Made by a program: the position numbers and the translations under genes. A stretch of DNA of 64,000 nt, taken from positions 308,501 through 372,500 of the forward strand of contig NZ_CP116902.1 in NCBI RefSeq assembly GCF_028471905.1, written 5' to 3'. Shown piece after piece: positions 966-18,157 of the stretch (positions are counted from its first letter, which is position 1; each line of letters starts with the position of its first letter). The DNA comes from Aneurinibacillus uraniidurans (GTDB lineage: Bacteria > Bacillota > Bacilli > Aneurinibacillales > Aneurinibacillaceae). The notes beneath the pieces were generated by a model that saw only the letters and a program-made list of their open reading frames with translations, made no database searches and was not told where the DNA came from.

Positions 966-2309
966 ATGTTCTGGAAAAAAAACGTAACGCTTCTCAAAAG
1001 AAAGTCAGTAGCTTTATATCAGGAAGTTTGCCGTCATTCCATTGATGAAACAGTGTATCAAGTAATGGAAAGTAGCAACAAAGAGGCATATACCGTACAA
1101 ATTAGGCAACAGAGATATGATCGAAAGCAGTATTTTTTTTTACATAGCAAATATCATCCATACAAAGAGGCTGTTGCATTTGCTGAGGGGAATTACAATG
1201 CACAGCCTGAAGAGCTAGTGCTTTATGGATTCGGCTTAGGATACCATGTAATAGAGGTCGGCAAGAGGCTACAAGGAAATCAACGATTATCTGTGTTTGA
1301 CATCAATCTCGATATTTTTTGTCTGGCCATGCACTATGTGGATTTAGAATCAGTATTTATACATCCAAATATTATCTTATGTGTTTCGGAAGATGGACAA
1401 GAGGTGGCCGGCCAGTTACGTTCTGTACTGCATAATCAATCAAAGCTAATGTTACACATGCCTTCTGTGCGCGCGATGCCTGATCAATATGAAAAGTTAC
1501 GCTTTGTCCTGGAAGATTGGAATATCCAGCAATCTGCCCGGTCCGATTATTTTGAGCTGATTCAGGCTAACTATCGGGAGAACCGAATGAATCAACACTC
1601 GAATGTGTCAAGTTTATTTGGTTCATTGCAGGGGAAGCCGATTGTGATCGTTTCAGCAGGACCATCACTAAATAAGAACGGTCATTTGTTGGCACAAGTC
1701 AAGGAGAAAGCATTTATATTTGCTGTCGGATCTGCTTTAAAACCTCTTTTACGTATGGGTGTGACTCCAGATATGTTCTGTATTATGGACCCGCAACAAA
1801 TCACGTATAAACAAATAGAAGGCTATGAAAACCTAGATATTCCATTTGTTTATCTGGATAGTGTTCATCCATATACAGTAGAAAAATACCAAGGCCCTAA
1901 ATATGTTGCATCTAGTGACATTTCCGATGTCCCTGATACACAGAAAGTCCAGTATGGCGGCTCGGTAGCGACGGCTGTTATGGATATGGCGATTCGATTT
2001 GGGGGCAATCCAATTGTATTTGTTGGGCAGGATTTGGCCTATACAAATAACGAACATCATGCGGATGGTAGCATGTATGGTGAAGAGAAATATATTGAGC
2101 CTGTTTCCACAATGAGGAAAGTGAAAGGGCAAAATGGAGAATGGCTTTATACGAGAATGGGATTGCTTAGTTTTAAACACTGGATTGAAAATAAAATTTC
2201 TGATCATCCTTCATTAACGTTTATTAATGCGACAGAAGGCGGGGCTCTTATTGAGGGGTGTGAGCATATCTCACTGCAAAATTTTATCTCATTATATTGT
2301 GATCGTTGA
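966..2309 (+). CDS. DUF115 (MptE-like) motility accessory factor
   Basis: This 447-residue protein carries the DUF115 core. The stretch IVIVSAGPSLNKN at about residues 225-237 is the characteristic glycine/serine loop. It is followed by VGSALKPLLRMGVTPDMF and later by GSVATAVMDMA and VFVGQDLAYTNNEHHADG. The C-terminus ends with the INATEGGALIEG motif. DUF115 proteins next to flagellar genes are known as MAF/Maf1-type factors and act in flagellin glycosylation with pseudaminic or legionaminic acid. The adjacent nonulosonic acid pathway genes fit that role here. The ATG at 966 follows a GAGGGAAAG ribosome site. At 447 residues it is shorter than the large MAF proteins, so it may carry only the catalytic core. 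Confidence 0.8.
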   Translation: MFWKKNVTLLKRKSVALYQEVCRHSIDETVYQVMESSNKEAYTVQIRQQRYDRKQYFFLHSKYHPYKEAVAFAEGNYNAQPEELVLYGFGLGYHVIEVGKRLQGNQRLSVFDINLDIFCLAMHYVDLESVFIHPNIILCVSEDGQEVAGQLRSVLHNQSKLMLHMPSVRAMPDQYEKLRFVLEDWNIQQSARSDYFELIQANYRENRMNQHSNVSSLFGSLQGKPIVIVSAGPSLNKNGHLLAQVKEKAFIFAVGSALKPLLRMGVTPDMFCIMDPQQITYKQIEGYENLDIPFVYLDSVHPYTVEKYQGPKYVASSDISDVPDTQKVQYGGSVATAVMDMAIRFGGNPIVFVGQDLAYTNNEHHADGSMYGEEKYIEPVSTMRKVKGQNGEWLYTRMGLLSFKHWIENKISDHPSLTFINATEGGALIEGCEHISLQNFISLYCDR

Positions 2310-2345
2310 TTCAGTAGAAAGAAGAGTAGGGAAGGATTGGGCATA

Positions 2346-3359
2346 GTGAACTCTTTTTTTACAGATAAAAAAGTACTGATTATCGGTGGGACGGGTACGA
2401 TTGGGCAAAGTCTTTTGAAACGGCTTTTGCTGCAAAATCCGTCTGTTATACGAATTTTTAGCCGAGATGAGCATAAGCAGTTTGAATTGCAGCAGCAAAT
2501 GAATGAGTTTCATAACATCCGTTATTTAATCGGAGATGTGCGTGATGCTGCTCGTCTAGAGCGTGCGATGCAGGGGATTGATTACGTATTTCATGTAGCA
2601 GCTATGAAGCATGTCCCTGCATGTGAATACAATCCATTTGAAGCGGTGCAGACGAATATTGTTGGTACGCAAAATGTCATTCAGGCTGCCCTAAACTCAG
2701 GAGTTAAAAGAGTTGTATTTACAAGCACAGATAAGGCGATCTCTCCTACTAATACATATGGTGCCTCTAAGCTTATGGCGGAGCGCCTTATTTCTTCAGC
2801 CCAGTATCACAGCGGTGCCAATGAAACAATATTTGCTGCTGTCCGTTTTGGAAATGTGATGGGCTCAAGAGGATCGGTTATTCCTTTGTTTAAATCACAA
2901 ATTCGTACAAACAACGAAATTACTGTTACCGACATGAGTATGAGTCGTTTTATGATGACCGTGAATCAGGCAACTTCTTTAACGATGCGTGCGATGGAGC
3001 GAGCGCTAGGAGGAGAGGTATTTGTTTTGAAAATGCCGGTGATAAGCTTGGCTGATTTAGCCTCTGTTATTATTGAGGAAACTGCTGCAAAATTTGAGTT
3101 TGATCCAGCTACTATATCCATTCGGGAAATTGGGTTGCGTCCAGGGGAGAAAATGTATGAAGAGCTAATGACATATGAGGAAGCTACGGGTGCCCTGGAA
3201 CTTCCGGATATGTTTGTTATTCCAAATGCATATGTAGGGCGGGAATATCGATACGAGGATGCAAAGCCAGCAGATAAGCAGAGTTATAGCTCATATGAAG
3301 TAGTTCCTTTAAGTAAACAAGACGTTAGAATACTATTGAGAGAAGAAGGATTACTTTAA
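2346..3359 (+). CDS. PseB/FlaA1-like UDP-sugar 4,6-dehydratase
   Basis: This is a short-chain dehydrogenase/extended NAD(P)-binding protein of about 337 residues. The nucleotide loop GGTGTIGQ lies near residue 14, FSRDEHKQ follows the second strand, and VAAMKHVPACEYNPFEAVQTN is typical of PseB and CapD-like polysaccharide enzymes. STDKAISPTNTYGASK contains the catalytic YxxxK pair, read as Y-G-A-S-K. PseB removes water from UDP-GlcNAc as the first step of pseudaminic acid synthesis, so that reaction is the likely one. GTG 2346 is favoured because GGGAAGG (2330-2336) is well spaced from it. A TTG at 2337 would abut that site, giving three extra residues if used. Confidence 0.82.
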   Translation: MNSFFTDKKVLIIGGTGTIGQSLLKRLLLQNPSVIRIFSRDEHKQFELQQQMNEFHNIRYLIGDVRDAARLERAMQGIDYVFHVAAMKHVPACEYNPFEAVQTNIVGTQNVIQAALNSGVKRVVFTSTDKAISPTNTYGASKLMAERLISSAQYHSGANETIFAAVRFGNVMGSRGSVIPLFKSQIRTNNEITVTDMSMSRFMMTVNQATSLTMRAMERALGGEVFVLKMPVISLADLASVIIEETAAKFEFDPATISIREIGLRPGEKMYEELMTYEEATGALELPDMFVIPNAYVGREYRYEDAKPADKQSYSSYEVVPLSKQDVRILLREEGLL

Positions 3360-3391
3360 AGATAATACTAGAAATACGAGGTAGCGCTATA

Positions 3392-4117
3392 ATGAAAACG
3401 ATTATTATTATTCAAGCCAGAATGGGATCTTCTCGTTTGCCAGGTAAGGTGTTGAAAGAGTTAGGAGATACAATAGTATTGGATTACGATGTTTCTCGCT
3501 GTCGAGAAATTCAGCCCATTCATGATGTGATTGTAGCCACCTCCCTATTAAGTCAGGATGATACGATAGAAGAGTGGTGTACTAAAAACGATGTGGCAGT
3601 ATTTAGGGGTTCCGAACACGATGTTTTGTCAAGATATTATGAATGTGCAAAATTATACAATCCAGATCATGTGATTCGTGTAACATCAGATTGTCCATTT
3701 GTTGATTATAAATTTGCCAACTCTATTGTAAAACATATGCAACAGAACCCTGTTGATGTAGCGAGAATAGAAGGAGATTTACCACGTGGATTAGCTATTG
3801 AAATGCTGTCTTTTGATGCTTTGGAGTACATACATCGAAACGGTCATGAACCGAGACATCGAGAACACGTAACATATTACGCTTATGAATATGCAGATCA
3901 ATTTACTTCTACATGGATTAGTGCACCAGTATCAATGCGACATCCACAACTTCGTATTACGCTTGATACTAAAGAGGACTATGCTCTTTGTCGGGCAATA
4001 GCTGAAAATTTTGTTGGTGATAAGTTAATATCTTCTCAGCAGGTGGTAGATTACTTGTTGGAAAATCCAGAGATAGCTAAATTAAATGCACATATTCAGC
4101 AAAAGCCGGTTATATAA
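3392..4117 (+). CDS. SpsF-like cytidylyltransferase
   Basis: This 241-residue nucleotidyltransferase opens with IIIIQARMGSSRLPGK (residues 4-19), the substrate-binding P-loop-like signature of the SpsF/NeuA-related CMP-sugar transferases. RVTSDCPFVDYKFAN (about residues 93-107) supplies the metal-binding Asp. In spore-coat clusters spsF sits next to spsE, and the spsE-like gene is close by on the other strand here. The most likely role is activating the nonulosonic acid with CMP before transfer. It follows the PseB-like gene by 32 bases on the same strand and ends at a strong bidirectional terminator. Confidence 0.8.
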   Translation: MKTIIIIQARMGSSRLPGKVLKELGDTIVLDYDVSRCREIQPIHDVIVATSLLSQDDTIEEWCTKNDVAVFRGSEHDVLSRYYECAKLYNPDHVIRVTSDCPFVDYKFANSIVKHMQQNPVDVARIEGDLPRGLAIEMLSFDALEYIHRNGHEPRHREHVTYYAYEYADQFTSTWISAPVSMRHPQLRITLDTKEDYALCRAIAENFVGDKLISSQQVVDYLLENPEIAKLNAHIQQKPVI

Positions 4118-4149
4118 AGACGTATGATAAAAGTGAAGTGTTTATAGAA

Positions 4150-4187
4150 AATCCCCTCACAGTTAGCAATGAGGGGATTAGTTTTTT
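4150..4187. terminator. Bidirectional intrinsic terminator
   Basis: A perfect 10-bp stem (4150-4159 with 4170-4179) is followed by a run of six T on the + strand; the - strand exit is also U-rich. It separates the + strand glycan genes from the convergent - strand operon. Confidence 0.85.
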
Positions 4188-4199
4188 ATACAGCCCATG

Positions 4200-4721
4200 T
4201 TAATCGTTTACTAGGATACTATAGAATAAAGAGTCATGCCATTTTCCTTCTGACCAGTGTGTTTCCCGATGTTTTCCATCTTGAGTGAATCCTAACTGAT
4301 CAAATAGCCTTTTCTTCGGTTCATCAAAGTCATAGATTTCAGCCCAGATTCTATGAAGGCCCAATTCTTCAAAACCGTACTTTACCAATAATTTTCCTGC
4401 ATCAGGGGCAAAAAAATCATCAATATATATATTGTCTTTTCCAATATAAATTGAAAAATCTGCACTTTTGTTAACCCAGTCTATGTAACATAAACCACAT
4501 GCACCGATTAATGAGTGTGTTTCCTGATCAATGATCGAAAACATCAAAGTATTTCGATCTTGCAGTACGACTCGCTCATACCACATGGTTTGATTTTCCA
4601 TGCTTAACTCTCTGTACTCCCGAAAATAACGTCGATATTCAGGTTGGTTTCTCCACGTTAATAACTGTGGCAGATCTTCTTTTTCGATCGCCCGGAGGCA
4701 AACCTTTTCTGCTTTTAACAT
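4200..4721 (-). CDS. GNAT N-acetyltransferase, PseH-like
   Basis: This 173-residue protein of the RimJ/RimL-type GNAT fold begins LKAEKVCLRAIEKEDLPQLL and contains the N-P-E-Y motif after LLTWR. The acetyl-CoA strand region is IGACGLCYIDWVNKSADFSIYIG, followed by GFEELGLHRIWAEIYDFDEP and RLFDQLGF, all typical of the family. In pseudaminic acid pathways PseH acetylates the 4-amino group of the UDP-sugar intermediate. This gene overlaps the NeuB-like gene by 7 bases, so that role is likely, but the fold alone does not define the substrate. It is the last gene of the - strand operon. Confidence 0.8.
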   Translation of the reverse strand: MLKAEKVCLRAIEKEDLPQLLTWRNQPEYRRYFREYRELSMENQTMWYERVVLQDRNTLMFSIIDQETHSLIGACGLCYIDWVNKSADFSIYIGKDNIYIDDFFAPDAGKLLVKYGFEELGLHRIWAEIYDFDEPKKRLFDQLGFTQDGKHRETHWSEGKWHDSLFYSILVND

Positions 4722-5803
4722 TTTTCCACCTCAAAGTCTGCAAGATACAATGCCTCGCCATGTTTTTTATTTGAACGTAGTTTCTTTCCGATTACACAAT
4801 GTAGTTCGTAAGGCTCTAAAGCTCCTGATGGAGCTGGACGTAAGCATTCGATATCATCTTCGCTCAGTATTTCCCCTGCGTTCATGTCACGAGGTACACG
4901 TAAACAACGCCGTTGAAGTACAACCGTTTCTTCTTCATTTTTTTCTACTCGCTTTGTTCCATCCCCAAGTGAGAATTCAAGTTCGCGACTTCTATCTACC
5001 ATTTCTCTCCACGTTTTTGGATTCATGGAAAAAGGATGGTCTGGGCCAATTCGATTGTTATCATCAGTAAAATGTTTTTCGATTACTCTTGCTCCTAATG
5101 CAATGGCTCCCAGTACAGTGGAATGTCCTGGTGTGTGATCGGAAAGTCCTAGTAATAATCCAGGGTATTTCTTCGTATATGTAAGTAACACATTAAGGTT
5201 TACATATTTGAAATTTTCCAGACTTCCTGTGTAATTTGTATTACATTGTAGTAAAATTAGCTGTTTATTAAGTCTGGTAACAGCTTCAATAGCTCGATCA
5301 ACATCCTTCATAGTAGAAGCACCTGTTGCTAAAATAACAGGCTTCTCTCTTTGTGCCACTTGTTCGAGAAAATCTATCCAGGTAATGTCCCCGGAACCAA
5401 TCTTATAAGCAGGTATATATTGATCTAATAGCGTCAGAGCCTCCGAGTCATATGGAGTTGTCATAAAGTCAATCTGGGCTTCCGCTGCCGTTTTTGCCAA
5501 TTCTTCACTCCAAGACCGATTACATTCATATTGTTCAAATACTTCATACACACTTTTTTTCCAGGTAGCTTGGTGACTCCCATGCAAGCTAAGGCTTTTA
5601 AACCCGTAGTCGCTAACAATTTTTTCGGCCTTAAAATGTTGGAATTTTGCTGCATCAGCCCCGGCTTCTTTAGCAAGCCATATTAATTCCTTGGCGCGTT
5701 CAAGATCTCCATCATGGTTGGATGCAATATCAGCGATGAAATAAGAAGGAGAGTCAATGGATATTTTTCTTCCGTTAATATAAATAATATCTTGATACTT
5801 CAT
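4715..5803 (-). CDS. NeuB/SpsE-family nonulosonic acid synthase
   Basis: The 362-residue protein matches the NeuB family, which condenses phosphoenolpyruvate with an N-acetylhexosamine to make sialic, legionaminic or pseudaminic acid. The N-terminal TIM barrel has FIADIASNHDGDLERAKEL and GADAAKFQ. Further in are YKIGSGD, ILATGAS, and GLSDHTPGHSTVLGAIALGA with the metal-binding His in IEKHFTDD. The last ~60 residues form the SAF (antifreeze-like) domain, starting near RRCLRVPRDMNAGEILSEDD. Its TAATG junction with the upstream reductase gene shows translational coupling. Which nonulosonic acid it makes cannot be read from the sequence. Confidence 0.88.
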   Translation of the reverse strand: MKYQDIIYINGRKISIDSPSYFIADIASNHDGDLERAKELIWLAKEAGADAAKFQHFKAEKIVSDYGFKSLSLHGSHQATWKKSVYEVFEQYECNRSWSEELAKTAAEAQIDFMTTPYDSEALTLLDQYIPAYKIGSGDITWIDFLEQVAQREKPVILATGASTMKDVDRAIEAVTRLNKQLILLQCNTNYTGSLENFKYVNLNVLLTYTKKYPGLLLGLSDHTPGHSTVLGAIALGARVIEKHFTDDNNRIGPDHPFSMNPKTWREMVDRSRELEFSLGDGTKRVEKNEEETVVLQRRCLRVPRDMNAGEILSEDDIECLRPAPSGALEPYELHCVIGKKLRSNKKHGEALYLADFEVEKC

Positions 5804-6678
5804 TAATAACGCCTCCTATACTCTGAAGCTAAGCTTTCGACTACTTGTGTTAAATTTGGGAGTGAGCGACCTAAAACTTTTTCGGTTTTTGATACCTCAA
5901 GCCCTAAACTCTCAGCGCGAACTACATTACATAGGGATGTTACACTCCCTATTGAAGTTCGATTTGTTAACGAAAAACCAAGTTGCTCGGCCAGTGCTGA
6001 AATAAACTGCTTTTTAGTTGACACTTCTTTGCTTGCAAGATTGATAGTACCCGTAATTTTTTTTGGTATTAAATCAAATAAGGCGGTAGAGAAGTGTGCA
6101 ACATCAATGCTTGATGTGTAGAAGTCATCGAATAAAGTTAAATGTTCTCTTTCATCTTGGAATTTTTTAATTATTTCTTCCACAAAAGTAGGTTGATCTG
6201 GACGATCTCGAAAACCTACGATGTTAGTTCGTACTACTAGTGAATTTTGATAAGTTAAAGCAAAGAGTTCACCTACGTATTTAGTACGTGCGTATTCGTT
6301 TAATAATGAAATGGGGCTTGACTCATTATGCAAGAGGTTTTTATCTCCTGTATAATAATGATCGGTAGAAATTTGGATAAAATAAGCTCCTAATTTTTCC
6401 GCCTGTTTTGCTATAATACTAACTGCACGGCCATTTACTAGGTAAGCATAATCAGGTTTTTTTTCGCACAAGCTTAAATTAGTAATAGCTGCAGTGTTTA
6501 TGATAACATCAGGGCGTACATACTCTATTTTTTCTTGTATATCAATATCGTTAGTAATCTCTATAGTAGTCTGTGATCCAGTTCTACTTGAGCCTATGCT
6601 TTCGATCCCTCTATAGGTTGCCTCTTTTATTAATGCCTGACCTAACATGCCTGTAGAGCCAATGATAAGTACCTTCAT
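5803..6678 (-). CDS. SpsK/RmlD-like NAD(P)-dependent sugar reductase
   Basis: The 291-residue protein starts MKVLIIGSTGMLGQALI, the GxxGxxG nucleotide loop of the RmlD (dTDP-4-dehydrorhamnose reductase) family. It continues with DVIINTAAITNLSLCEKKPDYAYLVN, ISTDHYYTG and EYARTKYVGE, which carries the YxxxK pair. In sps-type clusters the RmlD-like member SpsK accompanies SpsE and SpsF, and the same trio occurs here. It is the first gene of the - strand operon and overlaps the next start by one base (TAATG). The precise sugar substrate is not known. Confidence 0.75.
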   Translation of the reverse strand: MKVLIIGSTGMLGQALIKEATYRGIESIGSSRTGSQTTIEITNDIDIQEKIEYVRPDVIINTAAITNLSLCEKKPDYAYLVNGRAVSIIAKQAEKLGAYFIQISTDHYYTGDKNLLHNESSPISLLNEYARTKYVGELFALTYQNSLVVRTNIVGFRDRPDQPTFVEEIIKKFQDEREHLTLFDDFYTSSIDVAHFSTALFDLIPKKITGTINLASKEVSTKKQFISALAEQLGFSLTNRTSIGSVTSLCNVVRAESLGLEVSKTEKVLGRSLPNLTQVVESLASEYRRRY

Positions 6679-11441: not shown

Positions 11442-11467
11442 TAAAGAGCCCATGTTTCTTCCGATAT
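11442..11467 (+). promoter_or_regulatory. Sigma-D-type promoter for the giant FliK-like gene
   Basis: TAAA (11442-11445), a 14-base spacer and TCCGATAT (11460-11467) match the motility promoter consensus TAAA-N14-16-GCCGATAT at all but one position. It is 39 bases before ATG 11507 and just after a terminator. Confidence 0.75.
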
Positions 11468-11506: not shown

Positions 11507-14500
11507 ATGCGAGTTTCAGACTTTATGCGCGGCATTGGTAATATGGCTGCGCGGACAACGGAAGAGCGTCTGCCTCAGGTAGAAGCGACAATTAAACAGC
11601 GTATTTCTGCCAGCGAAGCAGTTGTACAAATAGAAGGACGTGAAGTGCGAGCTACATTTGAGAAAGGGGTTCCATCCCAATCGCGTGTAACCGTTCAGAT
11701 CACAGGCGAGACAGATACAACGATTGAGGTACGTACCGTATCAGGAGGACGTACCACAGGAACATCCAGTGAATCTGCTGAAGCGGCAGCCGAGAAACTA
11801 TTGCGTGATGCCGGAGCGAAACCGACCTCAGAAATGAAAGAAGCTGTGCGCATCCTGACATCAAATAAAGCTCCGGTGACAAAGGAAACAGTTGCCACCG
11901 TACAGCAAATCATGAGCAAAGGCGAAGGTACAGTCCAGCAGAAGCTAGACGTGCTGACTGCCATGGCACAAAAAAATATTGATGTGACACCAAAAAGTTT
12001 TGAAGCGGTGTTTCGTACAATGCATGGCCCTACGCTCGGGGCACTGATGGAAGAACTGGCAAACGAACTGCCGGAGCTTGCGCCGTCTGCAAAACAGGCG
12101 GTAGCAAATGAAGTACAGACAGCAGCTAACAATCGTATAGTTGGAGCCTCTTCTACAGATGCAGCTCGGCTTGTTCAGCAGATGCAATCCGTCGCCTCTG
12201 CCATCGAACAAGCCGCACGTGCAGGTGGTTCATTAAATAAAGACGAGCTGCAGAAAGCTGTAAAAGTGATGGAACAGCAGCTAGAACGTCTGGAACACCA
12301 GCCGGGAGCAGTTAGTGAGGAAACGACCCAAAAAGTAAAACAGGTAGTCGATGGTATTAAGCAAGCGATACAGGAAACACCTGCGACTGAACAAAAAGTA
12401 GCGGCAGAACGTGTGCTAAAGCACGTATCTGCGCGTGATGTAGAACTGGCGGCCAAACAGGTAGCGCAGGAAGTCAAAACAAACGCTGTAAGAAGCGCTG
12501 AGCAGGTTCGTTCCGTGCCGCAGCAAGCATCAGACAACAAGCTGTCGCGACAGCTTGAGACGATTGCACAGGTAATTAGCGATGGGAAACCGATCGACAA
12601 AGCTGCCCTTCAGGCACTTGTGCGGCAGATGAAGACCAGTCAGGAACTCGTAAAGCTTCCGCTCGATACGCAACAGAAAGTGCAGGAAGTCATTCGGAAT
12701 GTGGAGCAAGCTATTCGCCGGACGCCTGTGGCTGAACGTACGGTAGGGCCGGAACGCTTGGCACAGCAAGTACCGGCACGTCAAATCACGGAAGTGGCGA
12801 AGCAGGTAGAGGCTGTTACGCCAAAAGAGGAACCGTCTGCTCAGCCTGAAGTGGCCAAAAGATCAACGACCACAGTTGCTTCTTCTGTATCCGCTGTATC
12901 ATCTACCCGTGCCGAGACAAGTAAACTAGCGCAACAGCTTAGTGTGCTTGCGGAAGCAATGGAAAGCCGCCAGCCATTGAATAAAGAAGCGATCCAGCGA
13001 CTGATGCAGCAAATCAAGATGAATCCAGAGCTGCCTACCCTTAGCCGGGATGTGCAGCAGCAAGTACGTGCCATTGCAGAAAAAGTAGGGCAAGCCGTGA
13101 AAGAAACACCGCCATTGGAACCGGCTGTTTCGCCGGAAAGAATGGCGCGTTACGTACAAAGCCGGGATGTGCAGGAAATAGCGCGACGTGCAACGGACGA
13201 ATTGACCCGTTCAGCCGAGACGAAATCTGCTGGAACGTCCCAGACGTCATCATCGGCTCAGTCATCAGCACCTGCTTCGCAAAGTGGGACACTGTCGCGA
13301 CAGCTTGAGACGATTGCACAGGCAATTAGCGATGGGAAACCGATCGATAAAGCAGCACTTCAGGCGCTTGTGCGGCAGATGAAGACCAGTCAGGAACTGA
13401 TAAAGCTTCCGCCTGATACGCAACAGAAAGTGCAGGACATCATTCGGAATGTGGAGCAAGCCGTTCATCGGACGCCTGCGGCTGAACGTACGGTAGCGCC
13501 GGAAAGGTTGGCCCAGCAGGTACCGGCACGCCAGATTGTGGAAGTGGCCAAGCAAGTAGAGGCTGTTACGCCAAAAGAGGAGTCATCTGCTCAACCTGAA
13601 GTAGCAACAAGACCGACAACCACAGTTACTTCTTCTGTATCCACTGCATCGTCTACTCGTGCCGAGACAAGTAAACTGGCGCAACAGCTTAGTGTGCTTG
13701 CGGAAGCGATGGAAAGCCGTCAGCCGTTGAATAAAGAAGCGATCCAGCGGCTGATGCAACAAATTAAGACGAACCCAGAGCTGCCAAAAGCGGAACCTGC
13801 TATTCAGCAGCAAGTGCAGCGCATTGTGCAAGGTATGGAAGCTGCGATCCAGCAGACACCATCTAAGGAGACGGTGATTCCGTCGGATCGTCTTGCGGCA
13901 CATGTCTCAGCAACGGAGGTTAAGCAGGCAGCGGAAGCGGTTCGAATTTCAGAAAATCGTCAGTCGACAGAGTCAATCATTCGTACGGGAGCCTCAACAC
14001 AAGTAGCAGGTACACGTACTGTGGCACTGCAGGGCGAGCAGGCTGTTCATCCAGAAAGTACAGTAACAAAACAACTGGATATACTGGCACAGGCGATTTC
14101 GCGTCAGCAACCACTAAACAAAGATATTCTGCAAAAACTGGCGCAGCAGATTCTGCGGAATCCAGAGCTGCCTACCTTTAGCCGGGATGTGCAGCAGCAA
14201 GTGCGTGTTATTGCAGAAAAAGTCGAGCAAGCTGTGAAAGAAACATCGGCATCCGAACCAGCCGTTACGCCTGAAAGACTGGCACATTATGTCCAAAATC
14301 GGGATGTGCAGGAAGTGGCACGGCGTGCAACGGACGAATTGACCCGTTTGGCCGACGAAAAACCTGCTGGAACGTCACAGACGTCATCTTCGGCACAAAA
14401 AGAAGTCTCGTCGTTTGCATCTGTTCCGCAAAATAGAGAGCTGACTCGTCAGCTTGAGATACTGAACCAGGCTGTTTCCAGTCGGCAACCGCTGGATAAA

Positions 14501-17146
14501 GAAGCGCTTCGTCAGTTGACAGAGCAGATTAAGCAAAATCCAGGACTTTCGATGGTAAGTCGTGCGGCAGCACAGCAGATTCACCAAGTTGCTGAGCAGG
14601 TTGAGAGAGCCATTCAGGAAACACCGGCAGAGGAACGAACTGTATCGCCAGATCGTCTTGCTCGTTATATTACCCCGCGCGATATCTCTATGGCGGCAGG
14701 AAGAATCACGAAAGAGCCACAGAGTGTACTTGCTGACCAGTCTGATACTAGGCAGGTACGGCAGACTCAGCCTTCTGATACTCCGCAAAAGGAGAAAGTG
14801 GAGCAAGCGGCTCGCCAATTGGAAATGATCGCAGCGAGAACAGCCAGTGGTAAACCCATCCCGCGTGAAATGCTTGAACAGGCAGTACATCAAATACGGG
14901 AGACTACGAGCGAGATACAATCCAATCGTGATGCCACTGCGCAATTACGAAATACCGCAGACAAGCTTGAGCAGGTTCTCCGACAGCTACCACAGACTGT
15001 ACGCGAAGTGCCGACTGAGCAGATTGAACGCCGAGTTTCGGCGCAGGACATGAAGCGTGCGGCAGAAGTCGCCTTACAGCAAGTAAAAGAAACTGAAGTG
15101 AGGTCAACGGAGCCAACTGTATCATCTGAGCGCCGTCGCCTCGCCGAGATGGTGCTTGATATACGCACAACAGGAAAAGTTACACGCCCGCAGATCGAAG
15201 CCATCCAGCAGGCGGTCGAACAAGTTGTAACAGAAGCAGGCGGGAGTGAGAAGCTACGCCAGAGCACAAGTGAATTCATGGATCGACTAGGACGGGATCT
15301 CCGCATGTCGATGAGCTATGAGGCTGTCGGTCGCTCCGCTGAAGCGAAAGCGATGGTCCAGCGCTCGGTTGATCAGCTTGTTCAGCTATTCAAGCTCCCG
15401 GTGGCAGAAGCAGCGCGTACATCATCCGTAGCGCCAACAGGGGAGATGACGTCTGAAGCATCGCCACGCATGCTGGAAACGATGGGTCAGATGTACGATC
15501 GCTTAAGCGGAATTGTGGCAGCCGCCCGCGCTGAGATGAAGAGCGCACAGGGGGTAACTGCAGCTCAACTGTTAGGTGGTATAAGTGACACGCCAGATGT
15601 TGCTGATTTGCTGCAAGCACGCACACCGCAGCAGATTATGCAGGATGTAGCACAGACTTTGCTTAATACAGCCGAAGCAGAAGGAATTCCTTCGGAGATG
15701 AAGCAGAAGATCAGTGGCATACTTGAGCAGATGGGGCAGGCTGTTAACGGGGAAGAAGAGTATCTTTCTAGCGAAAGTAAAGTGGAAACTCCAACGGCAT
15801 CAAAGGTTGATGTAGATGTTCAGATGCAGCAACTTCAACAATTGTTTGACGAAGAAGCAGGACGCATGGCAGCTTATGCAAATGTACAAACAGCTAATTT
15901 CGAACGTGTTTCCCATTATATTCCTGATCACCTACGTGAGACTGCTGCGCAATTCAAGCAAGTGAAAAAGGAGATTGGAAACAACGTTGATCGGATGATG
16001 CAGTTTCTGGATAAAAACGTCCCACAGGCATCCTCTTATATTAAGAAGATTATTGAACCGACAATTGAAATGGTAGATCGCTTAGTTTCCAAAGGAGAAT
16101 TTGCGCTTTTTGCCGATATGGAGTTCGAACATGATGTACTTACGTTATCAAGTCGGCTTCAAGAAATTAAAGGAATGCTTTCTAAAGGACAAAATAGCGA
16201 GGCATTGACGGCATTCCGTGATGTGCGTCAGCAGCTGGATAAGTTGAATTGGCAACCGTCTTATATGAAAGTAGAACGATTTTTCTCCAAGCAAGTAGGA
16301 GAAGGAGCGATGCAAAATCCTTTGGAACTGTATACACGAGACTGGCGAAATGAGCAGTTGACTGGGCGAGGGATACAGGAATGGATGCGTGGTATGGGAA
16401 TGAACCACGAACGGGAGGCGATTGACTGGATGATGCAGCGAGCAGCAGACAATCGTGACCTAAACGGAGGCATGAACAACTTTAGTTCGCAGCAAAGCCA
16501 GGTATCTAGCCGCAGTGTGCATGTAGGTGCAGGTGGAGCATTTGATCATGGAGACTCACAATCTTCTGGGCAGGGGCAGCCGCATTCGATGAAGTCTTTC
16601 CTTATGGAACAGATCGAAAACAACACGGTTTCTCCGCGTGCCAAAGAAATGATGGAACAAGCACTATCAAATGTAACCGGTCAACAGCTGTTATCACGGC
16701 AAGATCCAGGCGTACCGATGCAATCTATGTATGTACAGCTCCCGCTTCCATGGGAAGAGGGAATGAAAACCGTCCATGTTCAAATTAATTCTCGCAATAA
16801 CGGCGAGCAGATGGACTGGGAGAACTGTAGCTTGTTCTTCTTCTTAGATACGCCGAAGTACGGGGATACAGGGATTGGGGTAACCGTAGTGGATCGAGAA
16901 ATGACCATCCGCGTTCAGAACAACTATCCGAATACAGAACAAGTATTCGCTCCGTACATTCCGCAACTTAAAAATGAACTGCAGGGACTTGGCTATCGTG
17001 TGCAGGCAGTATCGTTTGGGGCGTTTGCTCCAACAGAAGAAACGAAGCACGATCTGCCATCGGGACCGGCTGTCGATGTGCAAGCAGCACGCGCTGATGT
17101 AGCCAAGCAGCTATCTGGTAGGGAAGGAGTCGACTTCTCAGTATGA
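11507..17146 (+). CDS. Giant repeat protein with FliK/YlqG-like ends
   Basis: ATG 11507 is preferred because a terminator and a sigma-D-type promoter lie just upstream; a longer frame back to 11336 crosses both. The product is 1879 residues. Residues 1-75 look like the small beta domain of YlqG/FliK-like proteins (EAVVQIEGREVRATFEKG). Residues 80-215 are helical. About residues 218-1200 hold eight copies of a ~95-residue helical unit with consensus LxxQLexLAqAI...PLnKeAlqxL...QqxV...AIxeTP..E..VxPeRLAxxV..rdvxxxA, joined by Ser/Thr/Ala linkers. Residues ~1735-1858 resemble the FliK hook-length C-domain (LPLPWEEG, LFFFLDTPKYGD). FliK proteins are usually 400-700 residues and set hook length while switching the export gate. 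The stop overlaps an FlhB-like gene. Confidence 0.75.
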   Translation: MRVSDFMRGIGNMAARTTEERLPQVEATIKQRISASEAVVQIEGREVRATFEKGVPSQSRVTVQITGETDTTIEVRTVSGGRTTGTSSESAEAAAEKLLRDAGAKPTSEMKEAVRILTSNKAPVTKETVATVQQIMSKGEGTVQQKLDVLTAMAQKNIDVTPKSFEAVFRTMHGPTLGALMEELANELPELAPSAKQAVANEVQTAANNRIVGASSTDAARLVQQMQSVASAIEQAARAGGSLNKDELQKAVKVMEQQLERLEHQPGAVSEETTQKVKQVVDGIKQAIQETPATEQKVAAERVLKHVSARDVELAAKQVAQEVKTNAVRSAEQVRSVPQQASDNKLSRQLETIAQVISDGKPIDKAALQALVRQMKTSQELVKLPLDTQQKVQEVIRNVEQAIRRTPVAERTVGPERLAQQVPARQITEVAKQVEAVTPKEEPSAQPEVAKRSTTTVASSVSAVSSTRAETSKLAQQLSVLAEAMESRQPLNKEAIQRLMQQIKMNPELPTLSRDVQQQVRAIAEKVGQAVKETPPLEPAVSPERMARYVQSRDVQEIARRATDELTRSAETKSAGTSQTSSSAQSSAPASQSGTLSRQLETIAQAISDGKPIDKAALQALVRQMKTSQELIKLPPDTQQKVQDIIRNVEQAVHRTPAAERTVAPERLAQQVPARQIVEVAKQVEAVTPKEESSAQPEVATRPTTTVTSSVSTASSTRAETSKLAQQLSVLAEAMESRQPLNKEAIQRLMQQIKTNPELPKAEPAIQQQVQRIVQGMEAAIQQTPSKETVIPSDRLAAHVSATEVKQAAEAVRISENRQSTESIIRTGASTQVAGTRTVALQGEQAVHPESTVTKQLDILAQAISRQQPLNKDILQKLAQQILRNPELPTFSRDVQQQVRVIAEKVEQAVKETSASEPAVTPERLAHYVQNRDVQEVARRATDELTRLADEKPAGTSQTSSSAQKEVSSFASVPQNRELTRQLEILNQAVSSRQPLDKEALRQLTEQIKQNPGLSMVSRAAAQQIHQVAEQVERAIQETPAEERTVSPDRLARYITPRDISMAAGRITKEPQSVLADQSDTRQVRQTQPSDTPQKEKVEQAARQLEMIAARTASGKPIPREMLEQAVHQIRETTSEIQSNRDATAQLRNTADKLEQVLRQLPQTVREVPTEQIERRVSAQDMKRAAEVALQQVKETEVRSTEPTVSSERRRLAEMVLDIRTTGKVTRPQIEAIQQAVEQVVTEAGGSEKLRQSTSEFMDRLGRDLRMSMSYEAVGRSAEAKAMVQRSVDQLVQLFKLPVAEAARTSSVAPTGEMTSEASPRMLETMGQMYDRLSGIVAAARAEMKSAQGVTAAQLLGGISDTPDVADLLQARTPQQIMQDVAQTLLNTAEAEGIPSEMKQKISGILEQMGQAVNGEEEYLSSESKVETPTASKVDVDVQMQQLQQLFDEEAGRMAAYANVQTANFERVSHYIPDHLRETAAQFKQVKKEIGNNVDRMMQFLDKNVPQASSYIKKIIEPTIEMVDRLVSKGEFALFADMEFEHDVLTLSSRLQEIKGMLSKGQNSEALTAFRDVRQQLDKLNWQPSYMKVERFFSKQVGEGAMQNPLELYTRDWRNEQLTGRGIQEWMRGMGMNHEREAIDWMMQRAADNRDLNGGMNNFSSQQSQVSSRSVHVGAGGAFDHGDSQSSGQGQPHSMKSFLMEQIENNTVSPRAKEMMEQALSNVTGQQLLSRQDPGVPMQSMYVQLPLPWEEGMKTVHVQINSRNNGEQMDWENCSLFFFLDTPKYGDTGIGVTVVDREMTIRVQNNYPNTEQVFAPYIPQLKNELQGLGYRVQAVSFGAFAPTEETKHDLPSGPAVDVQAARADVAKQLSGREGVDFSV
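12542..13037 (+). repeat. First copy of a 750-base-period internal duplication
   Basis: This segment of the giant gene is nearly identical to 13292-13787. Three anchor points checked (12542/13292, 12671/13421, 12911/13661) are all exactly 750 bases apart, which is 250 codons. The block covers one whole helical unit and the first half of the next. Confidence 0.9.
13021..13260 (+). repeat. Repeat block shared with 14158-14397
   Basis: This 240-base block recurs at 14158-14397 at a constant offset of 1137 bases (379 codons), checked at three anchor points. It covers the second half of one helical unit plus the linker GTSQTSSSAQ. Confidence 0.85.
13292..13787 (+). repeat. Second copy of the 750-base-period duplication
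   Basis: This is the partner of 12542-13037. Only scattered, mostly third-position changes separate the copies, which suggests recent tandem duplication or gene conversion. Confidence 0.9.
14158..14397 (+). repeat. Second copy of the 240-base block
   Basis: This is the partner of 13021-13260. The copies keep the reading frame and the flanking linker, so the giant gene is a mosaic of exchanged half-units. Confidence 0.85.
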
Positions 17147-17553
17147 TTTATAAGCATTTTGGTCGTCCGGACCCGAAGGAGAAGAAAAAATCGACCCGTG
17201 CAGCTGTTATTCGTTATGACAAAGATAACGATAAAGCACCTGTTGTTGTAGCGCAAGGACGCGGGGAAGTTGCACGCAAAATTATTGAAAAGGCGAAAGA
17301 GCATAACATTGCCATGCAGGAAGATGCATTGCTGTTGGATAATTTGCTTTCGCTTGATTTGGGGAGTAGTGTGCCTCCTCAGATGTACCAGGTAGTGGCG
17401 GAAATGATGCTGTTTGTGCGGCGTGCAAATGAAGGTGCGCCGCCCTCACCTATACGTACCCCTGCTCTTCATCAGACGTCATATTGGGAGGACGAGGAGC
17501 AGGATGAAGAGGTAAGTATTGATGATTTACTTTCTGCTATTAAAAAAATGTAG
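17143..17553 (+). CDS. Stand-alone FlhB C-terminal domain protein (FlhX/YlqH-like)
   Basis: The 136-residue protein aligns with the cytoplasmic C-domain of the export-gate protein FlhB/YscU, but has no membrane part. AAVIRYDKDNDKAPVVVAQG, then ARKIIEKAKEHNIAMQEDALLLDNLLSLDLGSSVPPQMYQVVAEMMLFV follows the FlhB_CC pattern. The self-cleavage motif NPTH of full FlhB is absent, and the sequence begins about where the cleaved fragment would. Its ATG overlaps the stop of the giant FliK-like gene (ATGA), so the two are coupled, like the ylqG-ylqH pair of B. subtilis as I recall it. FlhB_CC contacts FliK during the export switch, so the pair may work together. The C-tail is very acidic. Confidence 0.82.
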   Translation: MIYKHFGRPDPKEKKKSTRAAVIRYDKDNDKAPVVVAQGRGEVARKIIEKAKEHNIAMQEDALLLDNLLSLDLGSSVPPQMYQVVAEMMLFVRRANEGAPPSPIRTPALHQTSYWEDEEQDEEVSIDDLLSAIKKM

Positions 17554-17583: not shown

Positions 17584-17610
17584 TCAACTCATGCTTTTTT
17601 ACGCCGATAT
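17584..17610 (+). promoter_or_regulatory. Sigma-D-type promoter for fliS2-flagellin
   Basis: TCAA (17584-17587), a 15-base spacer and a perfect GCCGATAT (17603-17610) match the motility promoter. It overlaps an upstream in-frame ATG at 17591, so translation of the next gene must start further downstream. No other promoter is visible before flagellin. Confidence 0.8.
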
Positions 17611-17668: not shown

Positions 17669-18157
17669 ATGGAACGTGTAGTCACACTTGAAAATGTCGA
17701 GATCAGTGACATTCATGATCGCCCGGAGTTAATTACTTCTTTGTTGTATAAGAAGCTTTTACAAAAAATAGATGAAGCTATTGTTTGTATTCCTAAAAAA
17801 GATTTTGCTAAGGCTAACAGTGCCCTGCAGTTAAGCTGCGACATAATAGAACGCCTTGGTGCTGGCATCAAGTATGAAGCAGGAACGCTTGCTGACCATT
17901 TGGAAATGCTATATCAATATTGCTTCGATCGTGTTGTAAAAGCTAATTTTACAAAAGATATTTCTATTTTGCAGGAAGTAAAAGACATGATCAATCAGTT
18001 GGATGAAGCCTGGACGACTGCAATGGAGCAGGAGAAAGACAATCCTCAAGCAGGGGCTGTCCAACTTAAGAAACCAGCTGCGCTTAATCCTTATTTGAAA
18101 AAGGAAATCGAGCAGGAAGTATTTGAAAGAGCACAGGAAAATCCAAAAAGTTTGTAA
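17669..18157 (+). CDS. FliS-like protein upstream of flagellin
   Basis: The frame could begin at ATG 17591, but a sigma-D promoter covers that codon. ATG 17669 (MERVVTLENVEI) is the next in-frame start, giving 162 residues. LITSLLYKKLLQKIDEAIVCI, a helix near SALQLSCDIIERLG and the segment MLYQYCFDRVVKANFTKDISILQEVKDMINQLDEAW follow the FliS four-helix pattern. The N-terminal anchor seen in true FliS (SPGSLTLMLY) is altered, and about 40 residues are added at the C-terminus. It lies 25 bases before flagellin in one transcript, so a dedicated flagellin chaperone or regulator is likely. Canonical fliS is also present at 9531. Confidence 0.72.
   Translation: MERVVTLENVEISDIHDRPELITSLLYKKLLQKIDEAIVCIPKKDFAKANSALQLSCDIIERLGAGIKYEAGTLADHLEMLYQYCFDRVVKANFTKDISILQEVKDMINQLDEAWTTAMEQEKDNPQAGAVQLKKPAALNPYLKKEIEQEVFERAQENPKSL

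Follow-up and report, generated by a model that had tools for sequence, protein, structure and literature searches.

A pair of overlapping genes in a late flagellar locus encodes a FliK-like protein and a stand-alone FlhB_CC-like protein, and represents a real, conserved and late-class version of a known switch pair that is apparently undescribed: no paper on the late pair or on ylqG was found in a literature search of incomplete coverage. Judging from sequence comparisons, many flagellated Bacillota carry such a pair beside a normal FliK and FlhB. The pair lies in a stretch of 64,000 nucleotides (hereafter the window; C1:308501–372500) of a 3.85-Mb, single-contig genome that is most closely related, among named organisms, to Aneurinibacillus species. 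Both genes proposed by a first-pass annotation of the window are genuine; ORF 11507–17146 (+ strand, ATG start) encodes a 1,879-aa protein of the YlqG/FliK type and ORF 17143–17553 (+) encodes its 136-aa partner (Table 1). The surrounding locus contains fliD, flaG, fliS and a fliT-like gene, with sugar-modification genes on the opposite side. Flagellin-glycosylation-type genes (Maf-like, epimerase, cytidylyltransferase, GNAT and NeuB; window 966–6678) adjoin the cap genes and vary in content among relatives.

Table 1 Features of the late locus (window coordinates)
Feature	Position	Strand	Basis
Sigma-D-type promoter TAAA-N14-TCCGATAT	11442..11467	+	11/12 consensus matches; equal score in 0.5% of shuffles
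N-terminal domain, aa 1–80, homologous to YlqG N-domain	11507..11746	+	hhalign probability 94.3, E = 1e-7
Conserved region, aa 82–200; DUF6240 match, aa 82–157	11750..12106	+	Pfam 28.8 bits (cut-off 26.6); genus-conserved
Helical repeat 1, aa 231–318	12197..12460	+	
Helical repeat 2, aa 346–433; 89% identity to repeat 4	12542..12805	+	Helices and disordered linker predicted
Helical repeat 3, aa 474–561	12926..13189	+	Helices and disordered linker predicted
Helical repeat 4, aa 596–683	13292..13555	+	
Helical repeat 5, aa 724–810	13676..13936	+	
Helical repeat 6, aa 854–940	14066..14326	+	
Helical repeat 7, aa 979–1065	14441..14701	+	
Helical repeat 8, aa 1102–1187	14810..15067	+	
Highly conserved region ahead of C-domain, aa 1451–1650	15857..16456	+	62–75% mean identity, ten family members
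FliK/T3S4 substrate-specificity-switch domain core, aa 1738–1838	16718..17020	+	AlphaFold model; Foldseek; Pfam Flg_hook below cut-off
C-terminal tail GVDFSV (G-φ-D-φ-x-[IV]-COOH)	17126..17143	+	54/57 relatives; YlqG ends YKGVDFRI
ATGA stop/start overlap of FliK-like and FlhB_CC genes	17143..17146	+	Sequence; same -4 overlap in 52/58 relatives
136-aa stand-alone FlhB_CC-like protein without NPTH	17143..17553	+	Pfam; TIGR00789; FlhB C-domain structures
Second sigma-D-like site TCAA-N15-GCCGATAT, before fliS2	17584..17610	+	Sequence
Second FliS-family chaperone (FliS2)	17669..18157	+	Pfam FliS 1.2e-22; start moved from 17591 by homology
Second flagellin (flagellin2), 283 aa	18183..19034	+	55% identical to canonical flagellin at C1:306388

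Domains and repeats of the pair

As the first-pass annotation had proposed, the ends of the FliK-like protein resemble proteins of the YlqG/FliK type. At the N-terminus, ~70 residues align with YlqG N-domains (hhalign 94%, E = 1e-7), and the last 170 aa match YlqG (E = 1.7e-32) and, weakly, the lineage's own FliK (E = 2.5e-4). An AlphaFold model of the C-domain (core pLDDT 82–90) has a FliK-type fold; its two best PDB matches are the PscP switch domain (5cuk; E = 6e-3) and FliK-C (2rrl; E = 7e-3), both with a Foldseek probability of 1.00. With Pfam Flg_hook, the 1,879-aa protein stays below the cut-off of 29.8 bits (1.1e-4; 22.4 bits), and two relatives exceed that cut-off, scoring 32.6 and 32.7 bits. 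The switch domain and the C-terminal tail (EGVDFSV, compared with YKGVDFRI in YlqG) are among the best-conserved segments of the protein. DUF6240 was rejected as a family name, being shared only in part and present in Lachnospiraceae-like giants with no adjoining FlhB_CC gene. In three such loci (L189, L190 and L191), DUF6240 proteins of ~1,000 aa are encoded immediately ahead of genes for a flagellin and a small FliS-like protein; they are possibly a distant counterpart of the late FliK-like protein.

The 136-aa partner belongs to the FlhB family but lacks the N-terminal membrane part, given that its Pfam Bac_export_2 match (E = 4.5e-15) covers only the last 73 profile positions (263–335 of 335). 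It also scores 94.7 bits with TIGR00789 (flhB_rel; cut-off 117) and matches FlhB C-domain crystal structures in sequence searches. The NPTH autocleavage motif, which was found in 27 of 27 FlhB proteins, occurs in none of 53 late FlhB_CC proteins; both absences had been read correctly from the window. The substrate pocket of Salmonella FlhB (A286, P287, A341 and L344; PMC13344023) aligns with A32, P33, A86 and M89 of the late FlhB_CC, among which P33 and A86 are invariant in 11 relatives. In a tree with YlqH and FlhB, all 53 late FlhB_CC proteins form a single clade (support 0.998) that does not group with YlqH; FlhB forms another clade and the position of YlqH is unresolved. Aneurinibacillus versions carry an acidic tail of ~40 aa (window 17440–17553), ending roughly in D(I/V)S(I/L)(D/E)DLLxAIxxI, that is absent in most other lineages.

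Three places in the genome are of the FlhB type (full FlhB, YlqH and the late FlhB_CC), and three of the FliK type rise above noise (fliK, 442 aa; ylqG, 487 aa; and the 1,879-aa giant). A search for a normal fliK and flhB located both ~1 Mb from the late pair, fliK within the hook/basal-body operon at C1:1344166, which agrees with the earlier placement of the pair away from the hook genes. The ylqG and ylqH genes overlap by the same four bases as the late pair. Given the presence of these other genes, the late pair is best seen as the third FliK–FlhB_CC pair of the genome, built like YlqG–YlqH. The proposal that the pair is a separate switch device stands in part: it has a FliK-type switch domain and a cognate FlhB_CC, but also a known relative with the same overlap and tail in the same genome.

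The centre of the FliK-like protein does hold eight helical units, as first noted. Their homologous cores span 83–88 aa at a spacing of 115–130 aa, and each repeat is predicted to be all-helical with a disordered linker. The repeats were detected by HMM and window scores (blastp self-comparison missed them even where present), and no tandem repeats were found at the DNA level. Sub-cut-off matches of the repeats to Rsd ('sigma D regulator') were put down to the chance resemblance of helical sequence rich in Q, E and A. Across ten Aneurinibacillus genomes, protein length equals 812 + 138 × the number of repeats (in aa; r = 0.996). In an Anoxybacillus-like genome (G264), the FliK-like protein (1,885 aa) shows 14 matches to another unit, ~100 aa long; no similarity between the two units was detected, which indicates independent expansions. 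Because length tracks repeat number and unrelated units occur in separate lineages, the core is, as far as these comparisons go, a 570–850-aa protein with a site where helical repeats get added repeatedly. Repeat-driven length would permit a ruler without showing one.

Two earlier statements about size need revision. The protein is about four times the normal length rather than three, since the genome's own FliK has 442 aa. Nor is great length a defining trait, because relatives range from 571 to 2,316 aa, most have 570–900 aa and the long forms arose repeatedly, through expansion of repeats. The notion of a unique giant was likewise rejected in favour of a family of variable length, represented by the 62 loci examined.

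Gene linkage, late class and the second flagellin

We examined the neighbours of the FliK-like gene in 62 loci. In 58 of them the next gene encodes FlhB_CC, and in 52 of these the two genes overlap by exactly 4 bases (some of the four loci scored as lacking FlhB_CC do carry the gene, which was missed in ORF calling). FliS follows in 51 loci, flagellin in 50 and a DUF327 (YaaR) gene in 43; this conserved linkage supports a link of the pair to flagellin export. The late pair is present in all ten family genomes that have any FlhB match. In a class sample, a giant-type C-domain was clear of YlqG in 28 of 399 genomes (at least 133 bits for giant-type versus at most 110 bits for YlqG), with Halalkalibacter, Alkalihalobacillus, Anoxybacillus, Lederbergia, Metabacillus and Priestia among the named carriers. 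The full set also occurs in a second class (G440), with further cases in G691, G485, G447 and G508, one of them of 2,316 aa. Some loci are more elaborate. Ammoniphilus resinae has one FliK-like gene flanked by two stand-alone FlhB_CC genes (L055:15847–18584), and a genome with 13 flagellin-type matches carries the module twice (L217:4104–15560), first as a 2,316-aa FliK-like protein with its own FlhB_CC and then as a second FliK-like gene, broken into two frames, with another FlhB_CC.

Sequence data support assignment of the pair to the late (sigma-D) flagellar class, as the first-pass annotation had suggested. Beyond the promoter in the window, sites matching at least 10 of 12 consensus positions were found in 34 of 57 upstream regions of relatives, 33 of them 16–58 bp from the start, compared with 6% per upstream region in shuffled controls. 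Several Lederbergia-type loci have no such site; in these, the FliK-like gene comes immediately after a small gene, inside the late operon, and by order and size this small gene is putatively flgM.

Here, as in every other genome checked, the module flagellin is an extra copy. In this genome the canonical flagellin, of 270 aa and encoded at C1:306388, lies, by gene order, behind flgK, flgL, fliW and csrA. Relatives of FliS2 begin with MERVVT or MERVIT. Some Geobacillus strains lack both the extra flagellin flaA1 and a second fliS (PMC5109656). Eleven loci retain the FliK-like gene without an adjoining FliS2–flagellin2. The FlhB_CC core is intact in five of these and degenerate in six (L118, one further case, was counted intact by eye), whereas each of the 52 module loci that have flagellin2 keeps it intact (by eye in two of them, after a motif miss). 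However, five of the six degenerate cases come from one family, and the tie between FlhB_CC decay and flagellin2 loss is therefore suggestive only. In loci L101, L127, L129, L143, L144 and L145, where FliS2–flagellin2 is gone and the FliK-like gene is still present, FlhB_CC has lost the APxVVAxGxG part and kept a PxQLYAVIGE-type helix. Two genomes with degenerate FlhB_CC (G282 and G114) are among the three whose FliK-like protein has lost the tail motif.

When FliS2 and DUF327 are controlled for, distances of the FliK-like C-domain still correlate with those of FlhB_CC (r = 0.30, p = 0.002); this partial correlation is modest, and it is as strong with DUF327 (0.39). Between DUF327 and the pair, distances are as strongly correlated as between the two pair members themselves. 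The DUF327 gene closes the module in 43 of 62 loci (for example, L096:12842–13276; L096–L146); it is the sole copy in several Bacillaceae genomes, and in Aneurinibacillus the single copy lies elsewhere (C1:3790875). Flagellin-like proteins of ~270–286 aa with an odd N-terminus (...MERLATGQRINRAADDPAG) are encoded at L222:1327–2184, L042:15445–16305 and L043:2282–3088; two of these three genes adjoin the module on the other strand.

A possible second switch and its alternatives

The FliK–FlhB switch is regarded as one irreversible event. In Salmonella, FlhB_CCD keeps the export gate in early mode and is lost in a FliK-dependent manner at hook completion, with the FliK switch fold and the last five FliK residues as the proposed ejector (PMC13344023). 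Late expression, the missing cleavage motif and the overlapping FliK-type partner fit a second round of docking, state setting and ejection, and we tentatively favour the possibility that the late pair is such a second switch. We infer docking, ejection and an effect on flagellin order as follows. Once the hook is complete and FliK has ejected the native FlhB_CCD, the late FlhB_CC would dock on the membrane part of FlhB, at the site left empty, and impose a gate state in which the FliS2–flagellin2 complex is exported preferentially or with a delay. The FliK-like protein would then be secreted, pausing on its switch domain, and its G-φ-D-φ-x-I tail would displace the late FlhB_CC, ending this state; the repeats would lengthen the secreted chain and may set how long or how far it travels. 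That the gate state concerns the second flagellin is suggested by the flagellin and chaperone genes adjoining the pair. Weighing against this reading are the 11 loci with no adjoining FliS2–flagellin2, five of them with an intact FlhB_CC, the origin of five of the six degenerate FlhB_CC in one family, the modest partial correlation, which DUF327 matches, and the narrow precedent, in that docking of a free FlhB_CC on FlhB is reported, as far as is known, only for Helicobacter pylori. More speculatively, and on balance improbably, many Bacillota would have two successive FliK–FlhB switches, one at hook completion and one during filament growth; an FlhB_CC that can be exchanged and a secreted FliK-like protein extended by repeats would then determine how two flagellin segments follow one another and how long they become.

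The pair might instead back up or tune the ordinary hook switch, with FlhB_CC as a spare part for FlhB, the FliK-like protein adjusting hook length or switching efficiency, and the flagellin as mere operon company. Stand-alone FlhB_CC has a reported spare-part precedent in H. pylori HP1575, ylqG–ylqH has the same architecture away from flagellins and flagellin2 is missing at some loci. However, the sigma-D promoters place the pair after hook completion, ylqGH, fliK and flhB are already in the genome, and FlhB_CC decays only where flagellin2 has been lost; we consider this reading unlikely. We are similarly doubtful that the FliK-like protein is mainly a secreted, filament-associated protein (a junction, cap or surface factor) with a switch domain for timed export only and FlhB_CC as a cytosolic escort against premature switching. 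Such a role is consistent with the highly variable, independently expanded, repeat-built middle and with the DUF6240 giants of another lineage, which are encoded ahead of flagellin and a small FliS-like protein and have no FlhB_CC, and a compact escort would account for the gene overlap, but the switch domain and tail would hardly be among the best-conserved parts if they served export alone.

Still less probable is a filament-segment ruler, in which the length of the FliK-like protein fixes how long a cell-proximal segment of one flagellin becomes, the other flagellin being used after it. Repeat number does set length (by the relation above), long forms with unrelated repeats occur in separate lineages and the module flagellin is extra to the canonical one; nevertheless, lengths vary from 571 to 2,316 aa across species (compared as protein lengths alone), a string of beads joined by disordered linkers is ill suited as a rigid ruler and the pair persists without flagellin2. 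Segmented filaments occur in Campylobacter, where their order was attributed to expression timing (PMC7332011). Degenerate FlhB_CC and tail loss in a few lineages might point to a decaying paralogue without present function, which is very improbable given open frames, a conserved tail, the overlap and the promoter throughout a phylum. Were the second-switch reading correct, export specificity could be reset or graded once filament assembly has begun. Late pairs are also natural material for testing the FlhB_CCD ejection model, and their natural length variants, with independent repeat gains, make it possible to ask what the FliK-like chain measures.

Comparison with known systems

The late pair shares the T3S4 switch fold (2rrl) and the FlhB_CC fold with the FliK/FlhB hook-length switch, from which it differs in lacking the FlhB membrane part and NPTH and in lying apart from the hook genes, with canonical FliK and FlhB coexisting. 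Helicobacter HP1575, a stand-alone FlhB C-terminal homologue, likewise provides a soluble FlhB_CC besides full FlhB, and was reportedly described by Wand et al. in 2006 (title cited in PMC3040844) as a 'spare part' for FlhB; we know of no FliK-like gene overlapping it. The Geobacillus flagellin island resembles the module in its extra flagellin (flaA1), second fliS and an annotated flhB in the locus, with neither FliK nor a FliK-like partner mentioned in the text (PMC5109656). YlqG–YlqH of Bacilli (FliK-like and TIGR00789 FlhB-like) is like the late pair in N- and C-domain homology, ATGA overlap, an FlhB_CC without NPTH and a similar tail (GVDFR[IV]). In contrast to its separate rnhB–ylqG–ylqH–yraN locus, the late pair has a flagellin neighbourhood and a sigma-D site, its FlhB_CC forms its own clade, and it has an expandable repeat region; both pairs coexist in the same genomes.
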